Below are positions 1,637 through 57,990 of a stretch of DNA of 64,000 nt, piece after piece. Under the pieces are notes generated by a model. That model did no database searches. It saw only the letters and a program-made list of their open reading frames with translations, and was not told the DNA's origin. Source of the stretch: Xiphias gladius (Eukaryota > Chordata > Actinopteri > Istiophoriformes > Xiphiidae); assembly GCF_016859285.1 (NCBI RefSeq), contig NC_053415.1:16997001-17061000 (forward strand), read 5' to 3'. Each line of letters begins with the position of its first letter. The stretch's first letter is position 1. The position numbers and the translations under genes are program-made.

Positions 1637-4634
1637 GTAAGTTGGGCTCAGGCGGCTTCATTTCTGCTCTTATAGTGAAATCCTTTTTGTTGTGCGGTTT
1701 GAAAATCGCACCCAATGTTTCCTCACATGTGTACTAAACGCTGTACTGTGCGCCTGGAGTGACATTAACGCACAGCAGCTTTGTTCACAAAGCCAAACCA
1801 GCTAGAGCACATCTGGAACCAGTCAGTCTATTATCTGACACAACACGGTGCTGTGGTGAAAACGAGCCATTTACAGCTTGGGTTTTCAGGACTGTACAGA
1901 GTCTATAGCTTGTTATGGTATTTATCTTATTAAGGAGAACCAATTATACCATTATTGTTGGCACTCTGCCATATTATGAGCTTCATTATGGAGACAATCA
2001 AGCTCACAGTTGAACTAAATTGCCATCGGGAGAGTTCCTTTCAACAGGGACATCATTCTGATAGCTAAAAATCCTTTTTTGTTTTGTGGTCTGTGAAGTG
2101 AAACAAACACCAACATTTGCATCCTTGCTGGACCACACACAAAGAAATACTCCTCATAGTTCCTAGTCTCAGTTTTTTTTTTTTTGTAGAGTTGAGAAGT
2201 TAACAGCACAGCAAAAGCTTTGGAGGAGAGTGACAGACAGCTGTGAAAAGAAAAGAAGGGAGGGCTAGTGTCTGTGTATACCCCACAAGCCCTACAGGCC
2301 TTTAGGGGTTTGATGGCCCTCATCACCAATATTGTTGAATGCTCTGGTGCAAAACTCTCCGCCAACTGGCGTCCGCTCTAATGGCATACAAACACCATGT
2401 TTGGATGGCCAGTCAGAGAGCATGTGTGTTTGTCTGTGTGCTCAGGGGTGGTGAGTGTGCTCAAGGGTTGGGAGAATACTCACCTTATGGGTCTCACACT
2501 GCAGCGCTAAGTAGTCCAACCTCTGAGTAAACACAGAGATAATGTGCTGTTCAGTTAGCTGGTCTCATGGCACACGGGGATGACCAACTCAAATAACACA
2601 GAATACATAAAGTTTCGGCGCTTCAGCACAGGAATAGTTCAACACGTTGGGAAATTTGTTAATTTTGTTTGTTAAGAAGGTTGTTGAGAAGGTTGATACC
2701 ACTCTCATGACTGTGTGGTAAATATAAAGCTACAGCCAGCGGCCAGTTAGCTTAGCTTAACATAAAGAAACAGCCGTTTCATATTCACTGTACAGACAAG
2801 ACAGTTTTATCAATCATCTCATCTAGACCTGGGTTAGAAACAGATTAAGTGTATTCCCCAAATTGCCAAACTATGCCTTTAAGAAGCAGAAACACACATA
2901 AACATAGCAGGTGGTGTTTGATGGGCTTAACCTCAACGGACACAGCTGTTGAACACCTGGCTTTGTGTTGACTCCTCTGTTGACCTGCACAACAGTTACA
3001 AGCTGAGGAAATAAACAGGGAACTGACTTCCTTTCATTTTTTTCCAGATTAGCTGTAGCCTAATTCGAGGACAGATTTTTTTTCAAACACTTACTGCTCC
3101 GGCAACTTAGTCTATCTTTCTATCTTGATCAACTGCCACAACATCACTCATAGGCTGACATGCAGGCCCTCCCAGCTGACTTTCCACTGCCCTCCCTACC
3201 TTTGCTGGCTGGAAAATGTGCTATTGTGTGCATCTTTATTGGATTCATGGCCCATGCAATCTGTGAGGTATGGCATGGTGAAGACAGAGCACACAGCAGA
3301 GTCTGTTGAGTGTCCCCATTAAGTTAATGGGGAGGTATTAGAAAGGCATGTATTCTCCAAAGGTAATTACCCTGATAACATATGGTCTGTTGACTGGCTG
3401 TGAGAAGCGCCTGAACTGGCATACCAGTGAGCTGTCTAAAGGAGGTCAACAAGTTGGAGCAAAGCTCCAGTAGCTAATCTGATGAGACTTCAGGGTGTGT
3501 AGTTAGGTTGTGTTTAGGTGATCGGATGTATGTTAAAATGACTGTATACACAACATAAAAGAGATCCATGAAAACAGGAATCTTTGTGTGTGAATTGATG
3601 TTTTTATATTCTGGTAAGACTGTAGGCTCTTAAAATCTGGATGCTAACTCCTGATTTATTATGAAGGAGAATGCCCGCCTGCCTCCTGAGGGGAGAAATT
3701 GCAGTGTTTGAAGATAAGCGGCTCAGAGATGTAGTGTGGCAGGGGTTTGCCAGGGTCAAGACTCTGTGTGGAAAACTCTGTGTTGGCGTGTGCAGGCTGG
3801 AAAACGAGATATGTATCTTGTGAATAAATATTGATGTTTTACTCAAACACACCGGGAGCTTGATATGCAAAGGAGGTCCAGATGCAGGTATAGTGAAAGT
3901 CCTAAGAGTTTACAGCCTCAGGGGACATGTGCACACACACACACTCGCATATAAACAGCAAAAGAAGAGTGTTTATTTCTGTTTTTATGGCATGCAATGT
4001 TTATTGCATCAACTGGGGGGGCAGGGTGGAATGACATAGTGGTTAATTTACTTATCGGCGCCGGGTCTGGATCTGGAGTACAAGAGCTGAGAGGATCAAG
4101 AAGACAGGCTGAAAAGAAGAAGATGACGACGATTCTCTTGTTGAGACCTTGGATCTGTAGCAGGCGCTGATCGAGCCACGGCCACTCGGGCACCCCGCCA
4201 TGTCGCCATGTTGATGCCTGTTCTCCCTCATTCAAGGTGGGCTAAAAATATCAGCCCAGGTGGAGGAAACATGAGCTTGAGGGGACGCTGTGTCCTCTGT
4301 CTATATCAGCCTGCTCTAATTACTGTAGCTCAACATCCAGTCATGGATCCTGTGCATTCCTCCTGATTGTAGAGGGAGGTGAGATAGAGTGATGTAAAAC
4401 AGAGAGGCGATGGAGCCACAGTCATGCAATTATAGCAGGGGAGACTGGGGTTAGGTAAGTCTTGGCTGTGTAGTGAGGAAAGGAAGGAGTGGGGTGTACT
4501 GTGTTTCATGTCCCTGCAGTGTGTTTTCTTCACTCTTGGCTTGGCTTAAAAGGAGTCCTCATTTAGCTTACCAGCTGTACTGGTATCTTATCATTACCAG
4601 CACTCTGTACTCAAAGGCACTACACACATAAATT

Positions 4635-16700: not shown

Positions 16701-17421
16701 TCTAACTGTCTTATTGCTTAGTTATTTCAGCATTCGGCCAATATGGACAGCAAGCTCTTAAGTTTATTATCCTAGTATGACTTTCTACTGGCCCTGAAAC
16801 ATAACACAGCAATTTTTGATCAGACCACAGTCTGTTAAGTAGTACATTGAGAATTTTATATTCTCTCTGAACTCTGATTTGTAAAAGGTGTAAGGCAGAG
16901 AGGCAAAAAGCCAGTTTGCTGATAACTGCATATAGTCAATTGAATTGATCTCTGAACTAGCCCATATTTATGAAACTGATATGTGAGTTGAACCAGTTGA
17001 TAGTCGACCTTATAAGGCTACCCACACACCACTGCACTGAACCCATCTGCCTTTACTTTCACATTTCTGGCTTGACTGACTAATCTATTAAAACATCTAA
17101 TATTAGGGTCTTATCTTGACTGACCTTTCACTGCTCATATTTACCGATGTTGCACTCTTTGTGTCCCTGCTGGCCTGAACATTGATTGTAGCTGTGGCAG
17201 AAAAGGTAGTCGAGAAAAAAAGTTATCTCACGCTGTCATCTTCACAGACCTTTGGCCAAGTGCTTAGTCAGAGCCCAGTTTAGCTCCATTAATGTGAATC
17301 AAGCCAACACTGTTCAATTTGCCTCAAATGCTCTATTCTTTCCCTCTTTTTAAATCACGTTTAGAGAAGAAAACAGACCAGGCAGCTGCCAGCCCAGGTA
17401 AGTTTGTGTGTGCGTGTGTGC

Positions 17422-17484
<63 letters not shown>

Positions 17485-17961
17485 TGCATATATTGCATGT
17501 ATATATGAAATTATGTTCTGTGGATTTCAAGTGTTTACAATTTTAGTGGGATAATAAAAAACTCCAAATTGAATTCTTTTCATTGAGGTTCACTTTAACC
17601 ATTTAAATTCAGGGTTATTTTTGCATTTAAGTCATGGTTCATAGATGGGTTGAGGCTAAGTATTGGGTTTTAAGATTTGGTTGTTTTGTCTGTGCAATAA
17701 CTTTAGTTTAAGGTTTAATGAAAGGAATGAACATGGTAAAATTGACGTATGCACAAAGGGACAGGGGTAAATGTGAAATAGCTTACAAGATAGATTTTAT
17801 CCTTTGGATTATTTATTAATGCTGTTGACCTATGGAAATGTTCCCATCCCCAGTGGTATGCTATGCTGCTGCTGACCGCAATGAGCTGAGGAGTCGTGTG
17901 ATTCAGTGGCTGCAGACTGAGGTTGTCCCAGATGGCTGGTTTGCAGGCAGCTGTGTGTGCG

Positions 17962-18031
<70 letters not shown>

Positions 18032-21000
18032 TGCATATATTGCATGTATATATGAAATTATGTTCTGTGGATTTCAAGTGTTTACAATTTTAGTGGGATA
18101 ATAAAAAACTCCAAATTGAATTCTTTTCATTGAGGTTCACTTTAACCATTTAAATTCAGGGTTATTTTTGCATTTAAGTCATGGTTCATAGATGGGTTGA
18201 GGCTAAGTATTGGGTTTTAAGATTTGGTTGTTTTGTCTGTGCAATAACTTTAGTTTAAGGTTTAATGGAAAGGGAATGAACATGGTAAAATTGACGTATG
18301 CACAAAAGGGACAGGGGTAAATGGTGAAATAGCTTACAAGATAGATTTTATCCTTTGGATTATTTATTAATGCTGTTGACCTATGGAAATGTTCCCATCC
18401 CCGCAGTGGTATGCTATGCTGCTGACCGCAATGAGCTGAGGAGTCGTGTGATTCAGTGGCTGCAGACTGAGGTTGTCCCAGATGGCTGGTTTGTCAAAGG
18501 ATCCAACTTCTCTGACATCCTGCTCAAATACTTCAAGGTGGGCCTCTTTTCTCTGTTGGGGTGCAGAAACACGCAGTGGACCCTGGTCTCTATTAGGGCA
18601 CACCATTGCTCCTGAACCATTCTTTTTTACCAAATACGCTGGTTTATTTATCCATGTGGGCCTCCTCCAACCTACCTGATCCTTAAAGCTGGCCCAGACT
18701 ATGTCTAATTGTTCATATGACAGGCCTTTTAGAGAATGTCAGCTGATGGATATAATTCAGTTTAATGAGGATCTCTGTCCTGCAGAGGAGGACCCGTGCC
18801 ACCCTATGGGCTGACATGAATGACATAAAAGCAGAAGAGCAGATGGTTCTGTGAAGAGTTAGTTTTAATAGCAGTATATATTTGTCTGGTGTTCCCCATC
18901 ATCATCACTGGGCTGCACAGTTTGAGAGTTTACTTACTGCTAACTTTATATACCATCTCATGAACGTTTTTAGTTCATCCGTCTTCTACAAACACACCAA
19001 ATGGTCATATAATGGGTCTTTAATTATCTGAAAGCTCCACCACCGTTACTGCCAAACTATTTCAAAAAGCCTCTGTTAAATTTCCCCACAGACACAGTAT
19101 TATGGAGCCATACAGTAGGTAACAAGCAGCAAGCAGCTCTGATGTCGATTCAATGTGAGCCATGAATACGCATTCATATTAAGATGTATACCAAAAATGA
19201 ATATATGAACTGAATTTTTCATGTAATCCAAAACATATTTCTGCTCCAGCCCCGTTTTAAAAATCTTACAAAACAAATACAGGCTGTAAGTAGAGTCGGT
19301 ACTTGAGGCACTCATGCCGAAATTGAAATCACTAAACATCAGGGTTACGGGATGATTGTCATGGCAACTAGTGTGCCCCTGATAACTTTTTTGGCAGTGA
19401 CTTCAAATTTGCTAGCAGCCTGGACTGACCTGTCTATAAGAAACACCAGGGATTTCTTTCAGAGTAACATTTGCAGTACAAACGTGCACATGACACAAAC
19501 TGATAAAACTATAGTATGTCCCCTGATTATGTATTATTTGCATCAAGCAGTATAAAAGTTGCGAAATACCTAAATGTTAACTTCGCCACTCCTATGCCTG
19601 TCCGTGTTTCTGCAGTCTTATGACAATGGTGATTCTCAGATGGACTCCTCAGAGCTCCTCAAATTCATCCAGCACAATGAGTCGGTTGTGGAGCTGCAGT
19701 CCTATGCAGACCAGGAGAGCAACAAGCTGCTCAGGTTGGTGTGTTTGTTTGCAAGGTTGTATGCTTTACATGAGTGTCTATGTATAGAAAACGGCTAGTG
19801 TTTGCAATCTTTTTTTTGTTTTGTCAGTATTTAATTTCCCTTCAAACTATGTGATTGGTAATGTTTGTACATACAGACCCATATCTGTGTCCTGCGGTGC
19901 TATTTTAAGGTACACAGTGAAAGTCACTGAACCCTTTCTGGGCTTGTGCAAATTTTACTGAAGGCCTCCTGTGGGAACCGACGCTGGCATAAACATCTGC
20001 GCTCTGTGAAATAAAACACTCTAAACAAATGATCATTTCGAGGATATGCTTATTTTTCTGTTTCTGTAATGTGTTGTTCTCACTGTATGGAGCAGCTAAT
20101 TTTTATTCTGTCTTTGCATTATGTGTGTGTGTGCTTCCCAGGAGCCTGTGTGTTGATGCGCTCATCGAGCTCTCTGATGAGAATGCTGACTGGAAGCTGA
20201 GCTTTGATGAGTTCCTCAATTGCCTGAAACCTGGCTTCAATCCACCAGAGAAGAGTGAGCCAAAAGTGTTTTATGTATACTTTGCCATATTGCAACATAA
20301 AGTTACACACCGATAGATATAGTATATGGATGCACTGACATAACCTTAGTCAGGCAGTCCTGACATCCAGCCAACTGTGGAAATGAGCCTCAAACTGCTG
20401 CTCTTATCTGAATAGTTTGAGACACAGTCTTGTGGTAGTCAGTCCAGTCTGCTCAGTCATCTGATGCTGATAAAATTAAAGGATAAAGTTCACAGGATGT
20501 AGAGGCATTGCTCACACAAAGACAAAACTAATATACACTATAGAGCACCGAACCCTGGAGTTCAAGGACACAACCTCACAGACATGCACTAGCACACACA
20601 CACGCACGTTTGGCTAGCCTGCTGGGGATTTTTTTGAAACTCTGGGTTTAATACACTCGCAGGACTCCATACTTTGTTTCACAGAAATCCTGATTCTCAT
20701 GCCTGGAGATTTTAAGAGAATGACAGACATATTAAATGTTTTGGAAAAGTCCTGATTTTTTAAAATGGTCTTTCCGACACACATGATTAGCATGAGTTTT
20801 GGCAGATTTGCTGACTTTTCATTCGTAAGCCAAAACTAGTAGAGCAAGTAAGGCATGTGGCTTTAATATTTCAACACTAAAGTCTATTATCCGTGATATT
20901 GGCTGAATAGTTTTTCATGTGTCCTTTTGCAGAATGTGCCTTGGAGGATGAGACATATGAGGACGGAGCAGAGACCCAGGTGGAGTGTAACCGCTGTGTT

Positions 21001-25929: not shown

Positions 25930-26318
25930 CTTTTTTATAATATGATAGATTGGGAGAGTGACCAATCAACGGCTGGGTGGGCGCGGTTTGTCGCAAGAAT
26001 TAGCCAATCGCTAATATCCACCACCACCCCCACCCCACCCCCACCCAGAAGAACTGCCGTACTGAGGCAAGGCTGCAAGGCTTTTAAAGTTACATGTAGC
26101 TACAGTAGCTTGTCCTTAGTCCTAAATTAGTGACCTAGATTTTCACTAGAGATGCGGTTAAATGTTACGGGCGGGTGCAAAGAAGTATTTCCGTTCTCCA
26201 TGTTGAAAACAGACAACAAGTCCTGTAGCTAAGTCGCCGTGTACGGGGGCGTGCAGCTTATAGCAAAAGTTTTGCAAGGCATTTGTTCAGAGTTAAAATT
26301 CACGCTAAAATAGCCAAA
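25930..26318 (+). promoter_or_regulatory. lrrc58: lrrc58 promoter and 5' UTR
   Basis: Two CCAAT boxes (25962-25966 and 26004-26008), 42 bp apart, precede a C-rich tract (26027-26046: C5 A C4 A C5 A C3) that forms a G-quadruplex motif on the minus strand. CpG density rises toward the start codon. No TATA box is evident at a sensible distance. The transcription start is unknown. Confidence 0.55.
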
Positions 26319-26776
26319 ATGGAGATTCACGAAGGAGCAGCGGCAGCAGGCGACGGCGTCCTTGATTTTTCACGTTTGAGTTTAAACACTTTTAGTGCTG
26401 ATAGTATCAGCGAAGAGAGGAAGAGGGACACCAAACAGCTCTACCTGAGCTACAACCGGCTAGCCTTGCTCCCATCGTCGGTCAGCGTTTTTTGCAACCT
26501 CGAGTTTTTGGACATCAGCAACAACGGACTGTCGATCATCTGCGAAGGCGTTACGCGGCTGACCAGGCTGAAAACACTGTTAGCCAAGAACAACCGCCTG
26601 GACGAGTTTTCGCTGCCCAAGGAGTTCGGCTCTCTGCAGCTGGAGGTGCTGAACTTTAGCGGGAACCGATTTGAGGAGATCCCACTTCAGTGTACGAAAC
26701 TGGTGCGTCTGCAGTCACTTTCACTCGGCGGAAACAGACTGAAAAGCATACCTGAAGAGATAGAGAATCTAACCAG
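26319..26776 (+). CDS. lrrc58: lrrc58 exon 1
   Basis: Residues 1-152 plus two bases of Ser153. It contains the N-terminal leader and about four LRRs (LYLSYNRLALLPSS, LEFLDISNNGLS, TLLAKNNRLDEF, LNFSGNRFEEIP). Donor GTAGGT, phase 2. Confidence 0.95.
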
Positions 26777-29700
26777 GTAGGTACTACCGCAAACTGTAAT
26801 GATTAGCCAACTTAGCGCCATCATTCAAAGTCAGAAAAAGCAGCAACGAGATGTCCAGCGAAGGGTCAATGTCAGTTAACGTAACTACTCCCTTTCTAGC
26901 TAGCTAGTTTGCCATTTAACTTTATCGATAATGTTCCCCAACCACATATACAGATAAATCACAGTAACGGACTGTGTGGAGACGAAGCGGCCAGCTAATT
27001 TTCCCCTTTAGTCCATTATTACACACCTCCATTATATTAACGAGTTCAGTTAATGGTAAAACCTATCGTTTGTAGTCGCATTATTCTGTGGTTCGTGTCA
27101 ATTAACTGCTAAAATAGTGTGGAACCCAAGCGCTGTTGCTATGGTTACCTGCTGTTAAGTATACCTTAGCACAATATATGAATGTGCAGCTGTTTTGATT
27201 ATTGATTGATCTGTTCTGATATTGATCTGTTCTATTATTGAATTGATCCAATTTTCAAGCAGTATAATGTGACCAGCTTAAATTATTAGTTGATCATCAA
27301 ATATTTTGATAATTGGTTAGTCATTTATAAATAATAATTAACCAATGTTTCCTAGTTCTGGCTACTAAATTGTGAATATTTGCTGCTTTTCTATATTACA
27401 TAATAGTAAGTTGAATATCTTTCGGTTTGGGGCTGTTGGTCAAACAAAAGAAGCAATTTGAAGAGATCACCTTGAGTTTTGGGAAATTGTGTGGAACCAT
27501 TTTTAGGCATCTTATAGACCAAATGACTAATCGGTTCATCAAGAGAATAATCAGCAGATTAATAATGAAAATAATTTAGAGCCTCAACTATTAGTTGGTT
27601 GAGAAAATGGAATCAACAACTATTGTGATAATTCATCATTTTGGTCAATTTTCGAACAATTTTTCGATATTTTTGATATTTTACAGAAAGGGCCATTAAA
27701 TGAGAAAATATTCGACACATCAGTCGATAATGCAAATAATTGATAGTTGCAAAATAGTTGAATAAATTCTGATGGGCATCTTTAATAAATGTCTAACCAA
27801 ATAATTAAAAAAATTGAGAAAATGATCTTCAGCCTAATAAGCTGTGAAAATAGTTTTTAGTTGCAATGCTACATCAGGTCCATTAACTACAATGTATTTG
27901 GAGTCCTATTAAGTCAATGGCAAGGTGCCTTTTCTGAGCATACCGTCATTCTGTGTTACTTCTCAAACCATGTGGGTCCGTAGCCAACCATCAACAGCAA
28001 AGTTCTTTTCCTGAAATTCAAAATGTTTGGTTCTGTCTTGGTTTGCATTTGCCAGAGTGAGCTTTTATCTGTTGCAGTTGTTATCTGTATCCTGCATCAG
28101 GTTTATAGAGATTTTTATCAGTTGTGTCATAGAAAGTAATGTAAACCCTCTTTAATCACAAACTGCTGTCTCAATTGAGTCAGCGGAGCTTACCCACCTA
28201 TTTAATCTGGCGAGAATCTTTCATTAAAGTGTCTATATTATCCATAATAGTCACCCTTAATTAATTATTAGTTAATGGTACTTAACCACTTATTGGTTTA
28301 ATGCTATTTACTTTACCAAGACTTTTATGTCTGAGTCTCTGAGACGTGTTAATTTCCAGTCAGTTTATATACTGTTAAGATGATGATTCATAGTGTCTGC
28401 AGGATAACGGTGTACTTAGATTGCTCCACTTACTATCTGGGAGTGGTTTTAGAGATATACAAACTCACAGTACTTACTAATGGAAGGAACGTAGTACTGA
28501 AACAAATTCATTATTATAGTAAAACATATTCAAAGTGAGTGAACAAAACATTGCAGCAATTAAAGGCAGAGAAACCTCTACAATTACCTGTGGCCACACT
28601 GGCGAAGGAAAAAAAAATTCAAAGTAGGGAGAAAACACGAGTCGTGATTAAACAGAGAAAAAATACCACGCAATAACAGATTAATTACTGTTTTTGCCAG
28701 TGGAGTCTGTGGCTCTTTGAACAGAGCAATATAACAGGTGTTTCTGGTTAAGCAAAAGTATCGCAGTCTTTTACTCATCGGTGAAGAAACAAGCACTTTT
28801 AGTGGATTTACTTTGATGCGGACAAATGCACCATTTGATTACTTTGCAGCAGCTGTTTAGCAGTTGTTGGGTATACTGTTCTTGCTTAGTAGTAGACTGA
28901 TTTCAAAGATTTTTTTTGTCCCTATCAATCATTTACACCCAAAAACATGGGAAAAGAAGGCACAGGTTAAAAAATCCCAGAGTTATCCTTTAAGTACAAA
29001 TATAAGACATAAACATAATTAATTTGCATAAGTATTCATTCACCCTCAAGCCAGTACTTAGTATTGTTTATGTACCTCTAGCAACATTCACAGTCTTGAG
29101 TTTATGTGGATAGGTCTGTAGCAGCCTTTCACACCTAGACAAAGCAGTGTTCCCCCATTCCTCTTTGCAAAACTGGTCAGATCATATCAAGTTGCATGGC
29201 AACTGAGTCAACAGCAGACTAAGAATAATGGGCTTTATTGTGAAAAGCCTGCCTTGGTCCTCTCTCTGGTTATGTGGTGTTTAGAATCATAGCATTTAGT
29301 AAAGACAGCCGAAAAGTTTCACTCTGGTCTCATCAGGCCTACGAATTTTGTTCTGCTTTGTTTCAGAGGCTCAGAAATAACTAACAAAGATGTTAGTTTT
29401 TTTTAAATTAACAGTTCCTTTCCCTTTGCCACTCTGTTTTAAAGCTGCAACTGCTGAAGGCAGCAGTTTTTGACTAACCAGGCACAGATGTATTTAATTA
29501 ATTGTCATGCTTTGATTACACACAGGTGATCCTCGTTTCACCTATTAAACATCTTGCACAAACAATACACCTTATTCTCGGAAGACATTTTGACATGTCA
29601 CATTAAGAAAAGCACATGTGTAAATAATAAAATAAATGATTGGTGAATTCCATTTTAGCTGCTTCAGTTTCAGGGTCCTGGCATTGTGTGTGCTCAATCA

Positions 29701-39464: not shown

Positions 39465-39762
39465 CCTGTGTGACTGAATAAGAAGTTGATGAGTGCATGA
39501 ATGAATATCCGCATATTTTACTCTTCTTTAATAATCTCTGTATGTTTCTCTCCCCACATATAGCTGTCAGTAGTGGTGACACTCCCTCATCAGGAATCAC
39601 CCTGTGTGTAGGCTCACACTGTAAATCTCTGTGACGTCTTAATAACACCTTCATGCCTCTTATTGCTGGCGGAACAAATGCAGAAATGTCTCTGCTGGCT
39701 CTACTGCATTTAGAGAGAAACTCCTTGTATCTTTTGATGTGAAAGACCAGCCTGCAGAACTA

Positions 39763-41333
<1,571 letters not shown>

Positions 41334-41389
41334 TATTTTGCCAGGCTCTCTCCCTAGTGGAGGTCTGCTTTTGAGAAAACAAAATAGAG

Positions 41390-44530: not shown

Positions 44531-45212
44531 GATGGCACCCAAAGATCAACTGCTAAGTGAATACCTCAGGCAGCAGAAACCCGATGATGCAGAGGAGGAG
44601 GAGGAACCATCATGGAGGGACAAGCCCCCACCAGTGGCTGGAAAAGGCTGGACTGAAGGACAGCACAGAAGCACTAACCATGGCAGCACAAGAACAGGCA
44701 CTCAGTACAAAATCAATAGAGGCGGGGATCTACCACACCAGACAGGACCCCAGGTTCAGGCTGTGCAAAGATGCTCCTGAGACAGTTCAGCACATAGTAG
44801 CAGGGTGTAAGATTCAGGCAGGAACAGCGAACACCGAACGCCATAACCAAGTGGCTGGCATAGTGTACAGGAACATCTGCACTGATTATGGGTTGGAAGT
44901 CCCAAGGTCACAACAGAAAACACCTCCTAAGGTGGTTGAGAATGACCAAGCCAAGATCCTGTGGGACTTCCAGATCCAGACTGACAAACAGGTGATGGCT
45001 AACCATCCCGACATCGTGTTGATCGACAAACAACAGAAGAAGGCAGTAGTGATAGACGTAGCGATCCCAAGCGACAGCAACATCAAGAAGGAGGAACACA
45101 AGAAGATCGAAAAATATCAAGGGCTGAAAGAGGAGCTAGAAAAGATTTGAGAAGTAAAGGCAACAGTGTTGGCAGTGGTAATTGGAGCACTGGGTGCAAT
45201 GAAAATGTTGTG
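44531..45212 (+). mobile_element. 5'-truncated LINE, REL-endonuclease type ORF2 end
   Basis: Reading in two frames gives the C-terminus of a non-LTR reverse transcriptase protein: LLSEYLRQQKPDDAEEEEEPSW, then (44600-45147) WLEKAGLKDSTEALTMAAQE, a zinc-knuckle remnant LCKDAPETVQHIVAGC, and an endonuclease-like stretch NHPDIVLIDKQQKKAVVIDV. The frame change near 44625 looks like a deletion of a short segment. A TGA at 45148-45150 sits where I recall Trp, and the frame then resumes with EVKATVLAVVIGALGA to 45212. Compared with remembered copies, the first Cys of the knuckle is Phe here. The PD...D pattern suggests the restriction-like-endonuclease group of LINEs (R2/R4-like), clade not resolved. 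Confidence 0.75.
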
Positions 45213-45484: not shown

Positions 45485-48400
45485 GTAATTTCTCTCTGTC
45501 TACTGTGCACACACACAACCTCACATGCACATAAACACACACGCATGATGTTGAAATTCAACACTATCAAGTATTTAAATATAGTGAACATATGCTATCT
45601 GACGCATGCAAGTGCCATGTGCACACATACACACACATTTGTCTGTGTATAACTGTATACGCATATGCACACACAAATGGAAGATCCACACAGTGCTGAC
45701 ATATGGCCAGGCTCATACATATACACATGTTGGCAGACGTGGCTTAATGACATCCAGGAGAACTGACCAACAGAATATTTTTGGCCCCTCGCAAAGGTTA
45801 AAGGGTTAAAAGATATATCCTGTAGGGTTGATATAGATATTTCAGTTGAATATGTACTGTAGTCTACTATTTCGACTCTGCAAATTAATCAAATTTTGTT
45901 AACAAGGCTTTTTTTACAAGACTGATTAATGACAAGACTTAAACAGTTTAATCAACATCAGACTAACTTTTCTATTGATGTTGGTGAATTTTTTGAATTT
46001 CTGTAACTAAATGCACCGTCTTGACCATCTTGTCAGACCATCAGACCAGAGAATCTTACTTCTCACAGTCTGAGAGTCCTTTAGCTGCTTTTCTGCAAAT
46101 TCCAAGTGTGTTTTCATTTTTCTTTCACTGAAGAGAGGCTTCCGTCTGGCCGCTCTGCCTTAAAGCCCAGATTAGTGGAGTGCTGCAGTGCAGTGATGGT
46201 TGTACTTCTGGAAGTTTCTCACAGGATCTCTGGAGCTCAGCCAGGGTGACCATCAGGTTCTTGGTCACCTCTCTTACCAAGGCCCTTCTCCCCTGATTGC
46301 TCAGTTTGGCCGCTGTGCTCTTGGGAGCCTGCAATGCAGCAGAGCATTTTTTTTTTTTCTTGCCTTCCCCAGAAATGCGAATTGACCTGAGCTCTGCAGG
46401 GAGTTCCTTCGACGTCATGGCTTGATTCTTGCTCTGATATGCATTGTCAGCTGTGAAGCCTTTCTATATCGACAGGTGTGCCTTTCCAAATCATGTCCAA
46501 TCAATTGAATTTACCACAGTCGGACTCCAATCGAGGTGAAACATCTCAAAGCTGATCAAGAGAAATGGGAGGCTCCTGAGCCAACAAAATGTGAAAAAAA
46601 AAGGGAAGGTATCTGAATACGTTCCGAATGCACTTTATATCAAATGAAAACATACTAGAAGTTTGGTATTAATCCCCTCAAGAAGTCAGTTCAATGGTAG
46701 AGATCAGGGTAATGGGGAAGGACTAGTGAAGCTATGTTTAGTATCGTCTCGGTCACTGGTGCCTTTTAGGACAAGAGTCAGTAGAGATCAGCAACATGAG
46801 GCCGGCACAAGAGAGTGTAATGTGACTTTCCAAATAGAAACTAAAGTAGCAGAGGAACTGTGTCAGGGAATACAAACACTTTCCTTTCCTCTCCGTGCTA
46901 CACCACATAGAAACGAGGTGAGTTATCTCTTTGATTTCATCTTCACCCGAGCGGAAGGGAATCTTGAGCTGCACTGTGTTTGCTTTGTTATGGTAATGGA
47001 TTATGTGGACAAGATAGCATTTTAATCTACTGTTTGATTTTATTTTAATGTCTTTATTAATGTGTGTTTAACTCAAGTGACATGAAAACTGTCAGCTAAA
47101 ATGAAACATCCTTTGATGAAATGTAACACCGTACGTTTGTTACTATTCATGGAAGCAGACAGCTCAACGGGCACAAATGTTTCTAGAACTAATAGTATAG
47201 TAAAAAATATATATAAAAGGAAAAGAGACAACTTATTCCCTAAAAACCCACCTGCTTTTCTGTCTGGATCTGTTCCCAGGTATGGCTACTGCTGGCAGTC
47301 TGCTGTCTATGGAGCAGCTTCTTTGTCCCATCTGTCTTGATTTGTTCAACCAGCCAGTCTCCACTATTTGTGGGCACAACTTCTGTAGGGATTGCATACA
47401 AGGATACTGGCAGGATGCTAATCTGTCGCAGTGCCCCATGTGCAAGCATGAGTTCTACAGGGGGCCTGAGTTCAAAGTTAACACATTAATTTCAGAGGTG
47501 GCCTCTCAGTTCAAGAAGTCGTTGGCAAAAAAGGGCAAAAAAAGACAAAAATGAAGCCGACACTGTGGACCAATATTCAGGCCATGAAGGTGACGTTTCA
47601 TGTGATGTGTGTGTTGGAAAAAGAGTCAAGGCTCTTAAATCCTGAATAGAATGTTTGGCCTCCGTCTTCGAGACTAACCTGGAGCCCCATTATGTTCTAG
47701 GTACCTTCAAAAAACACCACCTGATTAATCCCATGGTGAACATGCAAGACAGAGTGTGTAAAAAGCACGAGAAAAACTCCTGGATCTGTTCTGTAACACT
47801 GACCAGACATATGTGTGCCAGACCTGCATCAAGAGAGACCACAAGGCTCATCACACCGTTCCTATAGAGGATGAGAGCAGAGACAGGAGAGCTCAAATTG
47901 GAAGGATAAATGAAGAGGTGGGAAAAAAGGATCCACAGTCAACTGCAGAAAATCAGTGAAATCAATCAAACCGTTAAGGTCAGCAGAGGAAACACAGAGA
48001 GATTGAGGAGAGTTTACAAGCCTTCACCAAACTGCTACACCTCATCCAGAGAGGCCGCTGAAGTGGTGGAGGTGATTATTGCAAAGCAGAGGCAGGTTGA
48101 AGGCAGGGCCAGCGGAGTCATCATGGAGCTGGAGCAGGAGATCGATGAGCTGATGCATGGAAGCACAGAGCTGGAGCAGCTCTCTCAAGCTGAAGACGAC
48201 ATTTACCTTCTCTAGAGCTTCCAGCTTTCTCCACACTGCCGGCCGCCAAAGAGTGGTCTGACACCTACGTACAAAGTGCTGAATACGTGGGCACGGTGAG
48301 GAGAACAGTCAGGAGAGTAGTGTGTCAGCTAAAGGAGACTGTAAAGGCTGAGGTGAAGAGGCTGTGTGAGAGCGAGTTACTGAGGGCTCAGCAGTGTGCT

Positions 48401-51400
48401 GTGGATGTAACTCTGGACCCTGACACAGCCCATCCCAAACTGGTGCTGTCTGAAAACAGTAAACAGGTCTATCATGGTGATGTAGCGCTGAGCCTCCCTG
48501 ACAATCCAGAGAGGTTTTACCCCAGGGTTGGTGTTTCGGGAAAGGAGGGTTTTTCCTCCGGCAGGTTCTACTATGAGGTCCAGGTGGAAGGGAAGACCGA
48601 GTGGGATATTGGAGTTGGGCTTGAATCTGTCAACAGAAAGGGAGGGAATATGCTAAACCCTGAAAGAGGCTACTGGACCCTGGGGATGAGAGAAGACGAG
48701 AGCTACAGGGCCCTCAGCAGCACTCCTATCTGTGTGCCACTGGTCGAGAAGCCCCTGAGAGTCGGGGTGTATGTGGATCTGGAGTGGGTTACTTTTTACA
48801 ACGTGGACGCTGCTTCTCATATTTACTCATTCACTGGCTACTCATTCAATGAAAGACTTTTCCCCTACTTTAACCCCCGGCGTAATCATGGTGGCATCAA
48901 CTTTGCACCTCTGATCATCTTGCCTGTCAATTTCTAAAATCTGCTTTACTGCTTTCATCTATTAAAAAAAAAAAAAAATCGTGTACCAATTTCACATTAA
49001 AGGTAGCAAGGCTGTAGCATGATGTTTGTTGCTCGGTTTGCCTTAATAAAGTTTTGTTTACTCAGATGAGCCTTGTCTACTTTTTTTTCCCTTTGTTTTA
49101 ACACAAGTGAAAGTTTAGAATACATATACACAATAATCAAACAATTTAGGTTTATAAAAGCTACATTTGCAATATTTCATATGTGATTTTTAAAGCATTT
49201 GCATGTGCATGTGTGTGTTCAGGTGGCAGTGGAGCTCCCAAGGAGGTCCCTCTCCCCAGCGCTAAGCGCTGTGGTGTGGACGCTGCTCTCCTGTGGCATC
49301 CTGCTGGCATTCTGCTTCCTCCTCTTCACCCTGCGCTTCAAAAACAACAGGTGTTGTGCAAAGTGAAACACATACAACATATAAACACAAAGAGCCATTT
49401 AATGAAGTTTTATGGATTAATTGTTGCACTTGTTTTATCGTCAGGATTGTGAAGATGTCCAGTCCAAATCTGAATGTCCTGACTCTCTTTGGAAGTCTAC
49501 TGACTTATAGCAGTGGCTTCTTATTTGCCATTGATGAACGAACACATTCGCAAGGTGGACCATCTACAGCTGTGCTACAAGTAAGCACCCATGTCACCCT
49601 CAGTGCTCCATTATATTGCTGGATAAATCATCATTAGATAAGTATGCAGTGCTTTCTCCCACAGGCTCGAATGTGGACTCTTTGTGTTGGCAGTACCCTG
49701 GTGTTTGGACCAATTTTGGGGAAGACATGGAGACTGTACAGAGTGTTCACCCAGCGAGTGCCTGACAAAAGAGTGGTAGGCATGCGCTTCAGGCCTCCTG
49801 GCGGTCTCATCTGTTTTCAGCATACAAAGTCCAGGACCTTGTACTATTTTTATTTTTGTTACCCAGTCACTCTGGGATGCATAAATTCGATTAATTATTA
49901 CATTAGTATTTTTTGCAAGGTTATTTAAACCTTTTTAGAATTTATTTTAATTTATTTGGTGAACAGTTTTAAATTGTGGCTGATATTGTGAATCATGTGG
50001 AACTAATGCAAACATGGGTTGAAAGGGGTAAAATGGAAAAAAAAAATGCATGACAGACATTTTCAGACCAAGTGGTGCACTGATAGCATCTATTTTTAAT
50101 TGCTGACTTTCATATCTTCCTTAGTCAACGTATATTATGTAATGTTAATGTCACAATTTTGGTCTCACTTGATTTTGTGTCTGTTTCCTTAATAGTTAGC
50201 AGGACATCTCAAACTAATGTGTAGAGATTAATTTCAGTAGAAATTAAGGCCATTCGCCACGGGCAAAGTGATAAGCTTTTTGTGTGGACTCTGTTTTCTG
50301 TCTCAGATCATCCGAGACATCCAGCTGATGGGCATGGTGGCTTTGTTGATCCTGGTGGACACGCTGGTTCTCACCACCTGGAACCTCACAGACCCCATCA
50401 GATGCTCACGATCTGTCGGAGCTGTTGTCAAGGTAAAACTTAATGGTGATTCTGTGAAGCTGTACAGCAAGTTGTAAAACAAGTTATGAGTTTGTTTGTC
50501 TTTTGATAACAGGACAGTGTGGGAACTATAATTGCTGACCGTTTTTTTTCATGTACTTTTTATTGCTGCCAAATTAGGATTATTTGATTTGTATGAAATT
50601 GCTGGAAGGTTTGATTACGTGACTACAAAATACAAACTCCCTGATCCTCCTACCTTAATGTAATTATTTACAGTCACATTGGTGACATTGCCGAATATAA
50701 CTAGGTTTAAACTCACTAACAGAATATTGTTTTGTATGATGTAGGTGGCGGAGAGAGACATTTCCTACTCTTTGTCTCAGCTGGACTCTTGTTCTTCTGT
50801 ATACTCGAAACTGTGGGCTATCATTATTGCTGTCCAGAAGGTAAGTTATCTCTGTTCTATTCAAATGCAATGATTAAAACCTTACTTTGAGTTATGATAA
50901 CATGATTTATCTATTTACATAGTACTTAACGTGTTCTCTTTATGCAAAATTACTTTGTTCAAATTTAGAGAATAAAAAACTGAGTTAATCTCAGGTAAAA
51001 GAGAGGTTTCTTCATATTACTTAATTTATTTACTTATATATACTAGAAGGACTGCAGATGGTCAAGTCAATATATGCGACATGAACAAGATCAAAACCAA
51101 CATGTAGACTCAAATCTGGACAATGGATGACATATACATTTTTGAACCAATGTAATTGTTTGAGGTCCTAAGTCTGTCATTAATATATCAAAAAACAAAA
51201 GGTATCTCCAGCACTTACAAGAATTTAACAGAACCCAAAAATTACAAAGAGATGGATTTCAACATGTTGCTTTGCATTTTCTTTGTCCTTTGTCTTTACT
51301 TTATCCCTGCTTCTCTCTTCAGGGTTGTCTGCTCCTCTATGGCACTTATCTGGCTGGACTGACCAGCAACGTCAGCCACCCTCCAGTCAACCAGTCTCCC

Positions 51401-54400
51401 ACCATCATAACAGCCGTTACTTTAGTCACCCTCTGCTCAGCTGTGGTCGTCCCCGTGTCCATCTTCTTGCAGGCCTGGCCCAACCTAGTCTACAGCACTG
51501 TGGCTGGAGCTATCTTCATCTGCACATTGGCCACTAACTGTATGCTGTTTGTGCCTCAGGTTAGAAAAAAACACCCACAGATACATATAGCAGATGAAAC
51601 TGCTGAGGAAAAGGTGTCTCAGAAAAAAAAAAAAAACACACCATATTTATTTATTTATCTATTTGATCAAAAAAAACAAAACACGTTTCCTTAGCCTTGG
51701 AAAAGACCTGAAATTTCCTTGTGTCCAGTGATGACAGTGGTACTTTTGTACCAGCTCTTCAGCACAAACCACAAGGAAGAGGAATTTTATTTTTTAGTCT
51801 TAAATGTCAGGCAATCATAGGATACTCTGTCTGGAAACCAGCAACAAACACAGGCATTCAACCAGACAGGCAGAAACTGCAGATAGACAGACGTATGACA
51901 AACAGACAGATGAACAACAGATAAGGGGTTTTGACAATACCAGTAAATTCTATGATTGACATTGGTGCCCATTACTCCCTTTTCCATATGCCTGTCAGTT
52001 TGCCATATCTATCAGTGGAGTGTGACTCACACAGAAGGTGTTTATGAGTCATAACTACGTAGGCTGTTGCAAACAGGTTTATGACTCTCTTCGTGTCTGG
52101 CAGTGGGTTTATGTTATGATAAAGGAATGCATTGGAAAGGAAAAGGAAATATCTGAACAATGAGTAATATGCTCCAATAATACCTGGTCAAAAGGTCCCA
52201 TGTCAAATGGTCCGGGTAACATTTACCACTACTGTGTGCATTTCTATAGCTGAACGTTAGTGTAAAGATCTGTACTTTCTTTCACCCATCCAAAATGTCA
52301 TACTCACCACCATGCAGCTGACCCAGTGGCGGCAATTTGAAGAGGATCAGAACAACCCGGGTCAGATGGCAAAGTATTTCAGCAGCCCTAGTAAGAGCCA
52401 GCTGTCTGTGTATAGCCAGGATGAGATCTACTACCTGCTGGGGGAGAACAACTCCATGAAAAAACTCCTTAATGAGGTACTGCATCAGTCTTTCACCATA
52501 CTATCTGCCATTTAATAAGGAGGTCTGATAGGATATCAAATAGAATTTGTGTGAGCATGTCATGTCAAGTGAGCATGTCATGTCATGAACCTAGTTGCTG
52601 AATTATCTCATAATGCAACAATTTGTTATTTTAATTTGTTGTCAATCATCCAGACCACACTTCTCTTAAACATTTATTCCTGGTGTTGTTTGCTCTTTGA
52701 AAGCATAGCTAGAAATAATGGAGCTCGTTTTTAGTCATACTAGTGGGTTGGCCAATGGCAAAGTGGCAATGTTGATCTGTCGGTCAGTTGGCCCAACCCT
52801 TTGGTCCAGACTGAAATATCTCAGATTTTTTTCATGGTCCCCAGAAGATGAATCCCAATGATTTTGGTGATCCCCTGTCAAATTTGAATTTTTCTAATAT
52901 TTTGGTTTATGTCAGAAAACTGCAAAACTAATTATTCCCATCAGCCTAAGCTGTTCTTTGTGTTTAGTGCTAATAAGCTGATTTTATCATACTAACATGC
53001 TCAATTAAGATGCTGAACACGGTAAACATTAAACCTTGTCATTGTTATGCTGATAGCATTTAGCTCAAAGCAATGCAGTGCTTGTTAGCATGGCTGTAGC
53101 CACTCTTTACTTTCAGTCGTCTTCTAACACTGATTTTCCATCCAATATAAAACACATCTCAAGGCATAAAATTGCCTATCGTTGATAATTCATTTTAGAT
53201 ACAACGCCTTTTCAAGTCAGGCCAACAGAAGGAAATTGTGGTCTCTTGCTGGCAATAATCCCTCAAAAGCATGTTGCCTGACAGACTTTACTCTGTTATT
53301 TTTTACCGTCTTTTCAGAAGGGGTGTCTGTGTTCGCTGAGACTTTCACTTATCAAAATGTAATAGAATGCATTGCAAATTGGCTGGGAATTTCTTTTTAA
53401 TTTTTACTTTAATTGAGTCGAAAATAAAGCGAAATGACACCGGCTGTTTAACAATATATTGACAGTTTTCTCCTAGCGCTTGACTCTGCTGTTTGTCTCC
53501 CTTCAAACCACATCCAGGAAACTGTGCACATTTTGTTTAGAGGAAGACTACACTTCAAGATCCTATTTCTTGTGTTGGTTTTTACAATTTCCAGAAAAAC
53601 GCTGTGATTGACAGTCTGCAGGAGCAGGTGAATAATGCCAAGGATAAACTCCTGCGACTCGTGTCAGCCAGCCAGACCTGCGAGGACCAGGACATGGACT
53701 CTTCTGCCACCAACCTCAACTCCTCCTCCACTCGGACCACAGAGCTTCAGTCTGATGGCCCCTCCTCTTCTTCTCTACCTCAGAGAGACACTAGGTCTCA
53801 ACTCTCAACCCCTCACCTGACTGCTGCTGCCGTTCAACCGTCTTCTGAGCATCCCACAGCTCCAAACTCCTCGAACCCCATTACTGCTTCCTCCCCTCTC
53901 CTCGATGATATGTATGTGGGTGATAATCAAAAGAGTGCGTCTATCTCTGGCCCTACAGACAAAGACACAGCTGAGTCCAGAACAGAAGATGATCTCAAAC
54001 AGCCTGTGTCCCTCCCGTCTGCTGGATTACTCAGGACAGCAGAGGAGACCGTTAACTTTGTCACTTCCCTACAAGACTGTAGAGGGTTAAACCCCTTTCA
54101 GGTTGAAACTTTCGGCAATCACAGTGGCCTAACATCTCAGCTGGAACCAAACGCCAGACCGCCTGGTTTTGTTAGCAGCGAGCAGTTGCAGGAGATCCTC
54201 CAGGAGCTGAGCTTGGATGCAGTAACGGAAAGCACACTTCGATCTCCCGGTCAAACAGCCAGGACGCCCTCTCAGCTAAAATTTACAGCAGACTCCACAC
54301 TCTCCCCTCTCTCCCCGTGGACACCAGGCTGCCCTCATCCTCCTGTTCTCTTCCGTTACCCCAGCATCTCACCCTACGCGATGAGGAAACGTCGGCCGCC

Positions 54401-55288: not shown

Positions 55289-57990
55289 AAAGCCCAGAAA
55301 GCAAAATTAATGGTTTTCACAGAACAGTTGAAATGTGCATTATATTAGCTATTATGCAGATGTTTTATTTATTTTAATATTTATTAGATGTTTTGGTTTA
55401 CAGAATTATTTTGTGTCCTTTTTACCATTTTACATTTTCATACATGTAACTTAAAATGTTGCCATGCCATTTTATTGCATAGTCTGTATTTTGTAGTTTG
55501 AGTTTTGCTTTAATTTTCAAATGCCCTACATTGTCTACACAACACTCTGCATTTGCTATCACATGCTTCCCATCTACAGCTGGTTTATGAGACACCACAC
55601 CCTGTCAGAGCACTTGGGGAAAATAGGTCACTGCATTCGCGTTATACTCTTGATTATTTTCTCTGTATTTATTTAATGTGCAAAGGTCACAGTTAGCTGA
55701 AATGTATATCACGTGTGTGAGTGTTTAAGTGTGCGTGAGAGAGAGAGAGTACCCTGCTGCCCTTTGATCTTAAAGTCATCACCTGGTTTTTTTTTTTTCT
55801 TCTCCTTCAAAAGAAACTCCACACCACGTCATGTTCATTCTGTGTCTTCTCCTGTTTTGACCTATAAAAGAGCAAAACAGAAAGTGTATGGAACGTTGAC
55901 TTGATGCAGGCCTGAAATAACCTGCAGGGGTATCACAGGGGCAAAAAGGAGCCCCTATTAAGACCAACGTTCTCACATTCCCTCAAAGCATTTTACCTAG
56001 AGACTCACAAACCATAAAGGGTTTCTATGCAGGAATGCTAACCTGCCCCAGGTTTGCTGCTGTTATAAGGTTAGATATGCAGCATGTAAGCATATTAAAA
56101 GTAGATTTTGACACAAGACCCCTGTCATAAGACAGGGCCTCAAGTTTGGGTGAAAATGCAGGAGCCACCTTAAGGCTCTTACCATTTCAGTTTTTAATTG
56201 TAGTGTTGCATAATACTATTTGTAACTGATCAAATTGCCACCAAGCAATTTACATGCAGACAACCTGAGACTTCTGGGGCCCCTAAGTGTCAGTTGACCA
56301 CCGTGCCCGACTTGTGATGATGAATACAATACTAAATTTGACATTTATTGGCCTTTCCGTGATAAAAGCAATATCTTTACTGGATTAGAATATTTGCCAG
56401 CATCCATTTCATGTGACTTTAATCAAGACCAAAATACTTTCTAAAGACAAATTCAAGAGTTTCTATGATCTCTCTTCAACACAGACAAAAAACAAAAAAC
56501 TTGCCTTTCTCTCTGTCACTCCCTCCCACTATCTCCTCTCTGTGTTTTTTCTCCTCCTCTAATGGGAAAATGTGTGTTTGCCGGGGGAGGTGTTGCTACG
56601 AAGGGAAAACGGAGTCTTGCGTTACTTCTGCTCAGCTGCCTGTTTTTGAGATGCTGCTGCTCTCTATTCTGCATATGAACCATTGAAGGGCAGCCTGGGA
56701 GAAATTCCCTTTGATATAGAACATAACAGAGTATAAATAAACCACACAAAAGACCAACTAACAGCATCCTTCTACAGAAGGAAAGACTTTCCTGCCAAGC
56801 CACTCTGTTTAAGATGAGGAAAACTGGCAAATTGAGGAACTGTGGAATAAAAATAGTTGTCAGTCAATCACACTTATATTTTTTTTCTTCAAATAACACA
56901 ATAGTCCATGGTTATCCACTACATCATTCAAAATTTAATACAAAATCTTCTGGTTTTAGGTCATCAGAGAAGGATTTCTAATAAGTCACTATTTTTAATG
57001 GGTTAAGTTGTAACTAAAGGTTTTATTGATGGTTAATAAAACATCTGCTAATGCTCTGTTGTTCAGTTAAAAGCCATTAATAAGATCATTTTTTGGGTCG
57101 CCAGATTGTGAAAAATCTCTTGCTGATTTGACTACTTACTTTGTGAAAAAGAGCCGCAGAAGATTGGGACTGACAGCCATCTATAATAACTTATTAAACA
57201 TTTATTAAATATATTTGTTTTTAATTATTGGATTACCACAAGTTTGTAACAGTGTTCTTACCAAACAGAAATGAAAAACAAAAGCCACAGCGATTTTTTT
57301 TTTTTTACAACTTGGCAACACAAAACTTGCTCTTATTAACTGATATTAAACTGATCTATTAAGCATGACTAAAGGTTCAAGTTCTAGCTTTATTGCAATA
57401 GAGGGATGCACAATGAAATGTAACCTTCTTCATACATAAAATGTACAAATAAGTCAAAGATATTAAATTAGAGTAGAATTTTAAAAAGTAATAAAAAACA
57501 GAACAGATAAGAGTACACTCCAGTAATAGTACGACATGGCCTGTTGTACAAGATGTGCAAAATAGCAGGAAGTTGCAGTGCAAAGAACTGAGGGAGTAGT
57601 GGGACAGAAGGTGTAATAATATAATAATATATTATTAATAATATAATATATATATATAATATACATAATATGATTTCCAATAGAGAAGAGAAAATAAAAA
57701 TAAAGGATTTTTAAACATTAATAAAGCAATAAATTCCAACTTTATAACCCCTTTATAAATCTTGCCTTATTATAAAGTAGTAGGCTACCGCATAAATGAT
57801 AATAAGAATAATAAACTTTATTTATACAATAAAGCTTAAAGTGCTCCATAAAAATGAAAAAGAATAGAGATGACAATTTAAACAACAGTTAAAATGTTAA
57901 GGATATAATAGATATGGATGTATAGGCCAAATTTAACTGGGTAAAGAGTTGTAGTGACAGGGCAGCCATGCAAATATTCGCACATACATT
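55289..57990. other. Intergenic gpr156-gsk3b with AT-rich repeats
   Basis: No supported gene. 57380-57680 resembles low-complexity 3' parts of fish LINE-like repeats (TGTACAAGATGTGCAAAATA) and includes a (TAATA)n-rich patch at 57615-57665. AATAATAAACTTTATTTATA to AAAGTGCTCCATAAA (57808-57852) resembles the tail of another widespread fish repeat. Confidence 0.4.

Follow-up and report, generated by a model that had tools for sequence, protein, structure and literature searches.

A near-identical tandem repeat of intron 4 and part of exon 5 of fstl1 in the Xiphias gladius assembly and its probable origin as a false duplication

The fstl1 locus and the repeated unit

The window analyzed here is a 64-kb stretch of Xiphias gladius DNA (positions 16,997,001–17,061,000 of its contig) in a genome of 690.8 Mb and 1,298 contigs. 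The 19 contigs that were sampled measure 15–36 Mb each, and the assembly is therefore of chromosome scale. The gene at the center of the analysis is fstl1 (follistatin-related protein 1), in which Pfam comparisons identified FOLN (PF09289), Kazal (PF07648) and PF23564, in that order, with the FOLN and Kazal domains upstream of exon 5; a later exon encodes a von Willebrand-type domain. The domain order is that of FSTL1-type proteins (FOLN, Kazal, and an EF-hand pair over exons 5–7), which places the gene in the fstl1 family. The EF-hand_FSTL1 profile is tiled once by exon 5 (copy 2, see below), exon 6, and exon 7, which cover profile positions 1–42, 43–82, and 83–119, respectively. The exons are numbered as in the first-pass annotation of this DNA. 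The features discussed below are as follows.

17365..17397, + strand: exon 4, 33 bases, phase 1 to phase 1, with the donor GTAAGT at 17398; the reading frame is unbroken from exon 3 through exon 4 into exon 5 of copy 2
17379..17388, + strand: CAGGCAGCTG in exon 4, matching 8–10 bases at the junction
17405..17943, + strand: repeated unit, copy 1 (TG tract, body of intron 4, acceptor, 90 bases of exon 5)
17405..17482, + strand: TG tract of copy 1, 78 bases, with a C/T difference from copy 2 at 17425
17720..17866, + strand: indel island, holding all six indels between copy 1 and copy 2
17854..17943, + strand: truncated exon 5 of copy 1, with an extra GCT (alanine) and without exon end and donor
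17944..17951, + strand: junction bases CAGGCAGC, matching exon 4 at 17379–17386
17952..18493, + strand: repeated unit, copy 2, from the blastn self-comparison
17952..18029, + strand: TG tract of copy 2, 78 bases
18407..18537, + strand: complete exon 5, 131 bases, donor at 18538; its residues 2–43 match EF-hand_FSTL1 profile positions 1–42 with equal lengths

The first-pass annotation had described a near-identical tandem duplication of about 547 bp comprising an intron and part of exon 5, and a blastn comparison of the window with itself bears this out. The segment 17405–17943 recurs at 17952–18493 with 98.0% identity over 545 columns, a period of 547 bp, and an 8-base spacer between the copies. 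Under a second scoring scheme the same pair has 98.2% identity, a single mismatch, and six gaps that together span nine letters. The unit contains intron 4 including the TG tract, the acceptor, and the first 90 of the 131 bases of exon 5, so that copy 1 indeed lacks the end of the exon and its donor, as had been noted from inspection of the sequence.

A genome-wide search (690.8 Mb) with the exon 5 protein yielded two locations at E ≤ 0.001, both at this locus. The 1.3-kb region as a whole was found at one place, namely itself, in a genome search that skips simple repeats, scores the best candidates alone, and does not list the inner copy apart. We also surveyed 264 kb, made up of the window plus 20 sampled 10-kb stretches of this genome, for pairs of at least 120 bp and at least 90% identity at an offset of 100–9,000 bp, after filtering out low-complexity pairs and excluding stretch L001, which lies within the window. 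The fstl1 pair was the only one detected, and we conclude that the assembly is not full of such duplications. No Rfam family reached its gathering score anywhere in the window, and a PDB search with exon 5 returned weak leucine-rich-repeat matches alone (three at E up to 1, the best at 0.01), which were of no use. Among the matches listed in a literature search for tandem duplication of fstl1 exon 5 in fish, none concerned this locus, as judged by the title and the start of the abstract.

Differences between the copies and the junction

Compared at an offset of 547, the copies are identical throughout 17405–17720 save for the single C/T at 17425 inside the TG tract, owing to which the pure TG runs are 56 and 60 bases long in the two copies. 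The remaining differences are six indels located at 17720–17866, where copy 1 lacks G, G, A, G, and GC and carries the extra GCT. This agrees with the earlier description of the differences as nearly all short indels, with missing G, A, or GC and an additional GCT. On the two sides of the 146-bp island the copies match exactly over 295 and 77 bp, the latter at 17867–17943. The island is situated ~240–385 bp downstream of the end of the TG tract and ~80–220 bp from the junction. Outside the TG tract there are no substitutions, and all differences (6 of 6) are indels. Such an outcome has a probability of P = 6e-5 if the natural share of indels is assumed to be 0.2, and P = 0.016 if it is assumed to be 0.5. 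The confinement of all six indels to 146 of 539 bp has P = 0.007 under a uniform spread, in a test that was picked post hoc.

TG tracts of this kind change length fast. If microsatellites are taken to mutate at 1e-4 to 1e-3 per generation (all rates used here are assumptions), the unchanged tract length implies an age that predicts 0.001–0.014 ordinary indels outside the tract, compared with the six observed. From the equal 78-bp tracts it follows that the six indels would be either errors or changes made at the birth of the duplication. Under the same assumed rates, an old duplication with ordinary divergence is ruled out by the equal TG tracts and the lack of substitutions outside them.

The same exon stretch was compared with the family profile in both copies. 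The score is 39.5 bits for copy 2, which is equal in length to the profile over this stretch, and 35.5 bits for copy 1, which is one residue longer. Because of the additional residue and the lower score, copy 1 is likely the faulty copy at the GCT site. At the other five indels either copy could be the wrong one.

The sequence CAGGCAGCTG occurs three times in the window, at 17379–17388 in exon 4, at 17944–17953 at the junction, and at 56633–56642 on the minus strand, compared with 0.23 occurrences expected from shuffled sequences. The last TG of CAGGCAGCTG is already part of the repeated unit, leaving eight extra bases, and the junction omits 18 bases relative to exon 4 and the intron, the donor included. 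The junction sequence had previously been reported to occur at the end of exon 4 as well; its presence in the exon holds, but the 10-mer stops 9 bases short of the exon end. The exon-4 match is 18 bases away from the breakpoint, and a match by chance within the 100 bp left of the unit is found for 0.6% of the 8-mers of the window on either strand and for 0.03% of the 10-mers on the same strand. There are no runs of N anywhere in the 64-kb window, the junction included.

Origin of the duplication

The indel-only differences, their clustering, the equal length of the TG tracts, and the comparison of the copy-1 exon with the family profile lead us to favor an assembly artefact. The end of exon 4, intron 4, and the start of exon 5 were probably written twice by the assembler, in a false duplication similar to the homotype class. 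An assembly artefact with uncorrected long-read indels had been suggested in the first-pass annotation, and the indel-only, clustered differences make it the more probable reading. The specific proposal of gap filling at a microsatellite finds less agreement with the data, as the indels are located away from the TG tract, the tract has equal length in both copies with one C/T, and the window contains no Ns.

The full history of the assembly we infer from the anatomy of the unit and the pattern of differences. Two overlapping pieces of one locus, the first ending in exon 5 at GGTTTG and the second starting in exon 4 at CAGGCAGC, may have been concatenated rather than merged, and uncorrected indels in the first piece could have helped to hide the overlap. 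During polishing, reads would have preferred the cleaner copy 2, leaving the island in copy 1 uncorrected. If so, the fstl1 gene of the animal would contain an ordinary intron 4 and exon 5, each present once.

In the description of Rhie et al. (2021; PMC8081667), homotype duplications are found near contig boundaries or as under-collapsed sequence resulting from sequencing errors and are often about as long as a read, and among the errors of their unpolished long-read contigs short indels are the most frequent. The marks of the class listed by Ko et al. (2022; PMC9516828) are low read depth, a gap separating the two copies, and the lack of haplotype-specific k-mers. In these two accounts, the gap and the read-like length figure as frequent rather than constant marks. 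The fstl1 pair resembles homotype duplications so described in its near-identical neighboring copies on one scaffold, error-like differences, and partial gene content. It differs from them in that no gap separates the copies, the 547-bp unit is far shorter than usual long reads, and the seam consists of 8 bases of exon 4 with 18 bases skipped. Other observations also count against an artefact. The noisy stretch is interior to copy 1, the first 316 bp of which agree with copy 2 to one base and the last 77 exactly; a single base separates the two TG tracts, the most difficult part of the unit to sequence; and the 18 bases expected beside the exon-4 piece from a simple overlap are absent from copy 2. 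The extra GCT of copy 1 leaves the reading frame intact, its AG acceptor is preserved, and the pair is the only one of its kind in the 264 kb surveyed.

Tandem duplications can arise by template switching or polymerase-theta end joining, and the fstl1 pair could be a real and very recent duplication of this type, in which the broken end in exon 5 became linked to the beginning of the TG tract via eight bases templated by exon 4 (CAGGCAGC) followed by TG as the microhomology. A short piece matching nearby sequence and a 2-bp microhomology at the junction are what such processes leave, the low chance frequency of the exon-4 match so close to the breakpoint is in keeping with them, and the junction has no Ns. 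The gene would also stay usable, as the copy-1 exon fragment would be inert without a donor and exon 4 would be spliced from its donor at 17398 to the complete exon at 18407–18537. The indels would then stem from error-prone synthesis at the birth of the duplication or represent uncorrected errors atop a real duplication, later ordinary mutation being unlikely with the tract length unchanged and no substitution outside the tract. According to Deem et al. (PMC3039667), break-induced replication in yeast produces chiefly deletions of 1 bp, most of which fall in runs of at least two, and raises frameshifts up to 2,800-fold. Four of the six indels, when read as losses from copy 1, are likewise 1-bp deletions in runs, but 56% of the bases in the copy-2 stretch lie in such runs. 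Moreover, six indels in 146 bp amount to about 1 per 24 bp, and an increase of the reported size from a very low base should fall far short of this density. The location of the indels also departs from what template switching or end joining would leave, as they are clustered inside the copy, ~80–220 bp before the junction, with exact sequence adjoining the junction itself. Given the interior island, the near-identical TG tract, and the junction with its 8 bases of exon 4 and 18 bases omitted, we retain a real recent duplication as an unlikely but by no means negligible alternative.

The copies could also be allelic, with both haplotypes of a heterozygous individual placed one after the other in the assembly (a heterotype false duplication). 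In the overall comparison of Ko et al. (PMC9516828) this is the commoner class of false duplications, and the in-frame GCT step and the C/T in the TG tract would pass for ordinary allelic differences. However, alleles that diverge by 1–2% should show substitutions and often tracts of unequal length, whereas here the tracts are equally long and the differences beyond them are six clustered indels and no substitutions. We regard this explanation as improbable. Also improbable is a newborn intragenic tandem duplication in a vertebrate produced by error-prone template-switching synthesis, in which the junction would be templated by exon 4 and one copy would have received a burst of slippage indels. 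If true, a single event would directly document mutagenic synthesis during repair.

A scaffold-gap join is not favored as the direct cause, as the junction contains no Ns, compared with 500 N in the sole N run in the 200 kb sampled. This run (exactly 500 N, at 2558–3057 of stretch L013) is probably a scaffold gap, although stretches that are withheld also read as N, and its flanks had no shared sequence at E ≤ 1e-3.

Consequences for the gene and other features of the window

The exon piece in copy 1 retains the AG acceptor and continues in the phase of exon 4, with an open frame up to a stop whose last base is 18101. Four GT sites before this stop reach the cut-off, each with 4 of 7 consensus positions, compared with scores of 7, 5, and 6 for the three real donors examined, by a simple consensus count as opposed to a trained splice model. 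The suggestion that a cryptic exon could be mis-spliced and insert a frameshift thus finds little to build on, as the piece is in the phase of exon 4 and is followed by no good donor. If the duplication is real, reading on through copy 1 should give a truncated product and not an internal exon with a frameshift, because the frame is open to 18101 and there is no good donor before the stop. In the simplest view, a real duplication would be harmless, since exon 4 can splice to the complete exon of copy 2. A functional duplicate or alternative exon is ruled out, as copy 1 has neither the exon end nor the donor.

A practical consequence is that automatic annotation of this genome could give fstl1 a spurious exon or a spurious truncated isoform. 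Equal microsatellite length, indel-only differences, clustering, and a check against the family profile together offer a cheap flag for small false duplications that requires the sequence alone.

Several other features were recorded in the window. An open frame at 26229–26780 contains leucine-rich repeats (Pfam LRR) and probably represents exon 1 of lrrc58. Part of a class-C GPCR (7tm_3) is encoded at 51164–51694 and perhaps belongs to gpr156; we take lrrc58 and gpr156 to be neighbors of fstl1. An open frame of 197 aa at 44557–45150 had no Pfam match at E ≤ 0.01 and gives the impression of the end of a retroelement reading frame. The open frame at 48194–48937 (247 aa) has PRY and SPRY domains, as in TRIM-type genes. 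The segments 39749–39965 and 41127–41347 form the arms of an inverted repeat with 83% identity over 221 columns, possibly the remnant of a mobile element.
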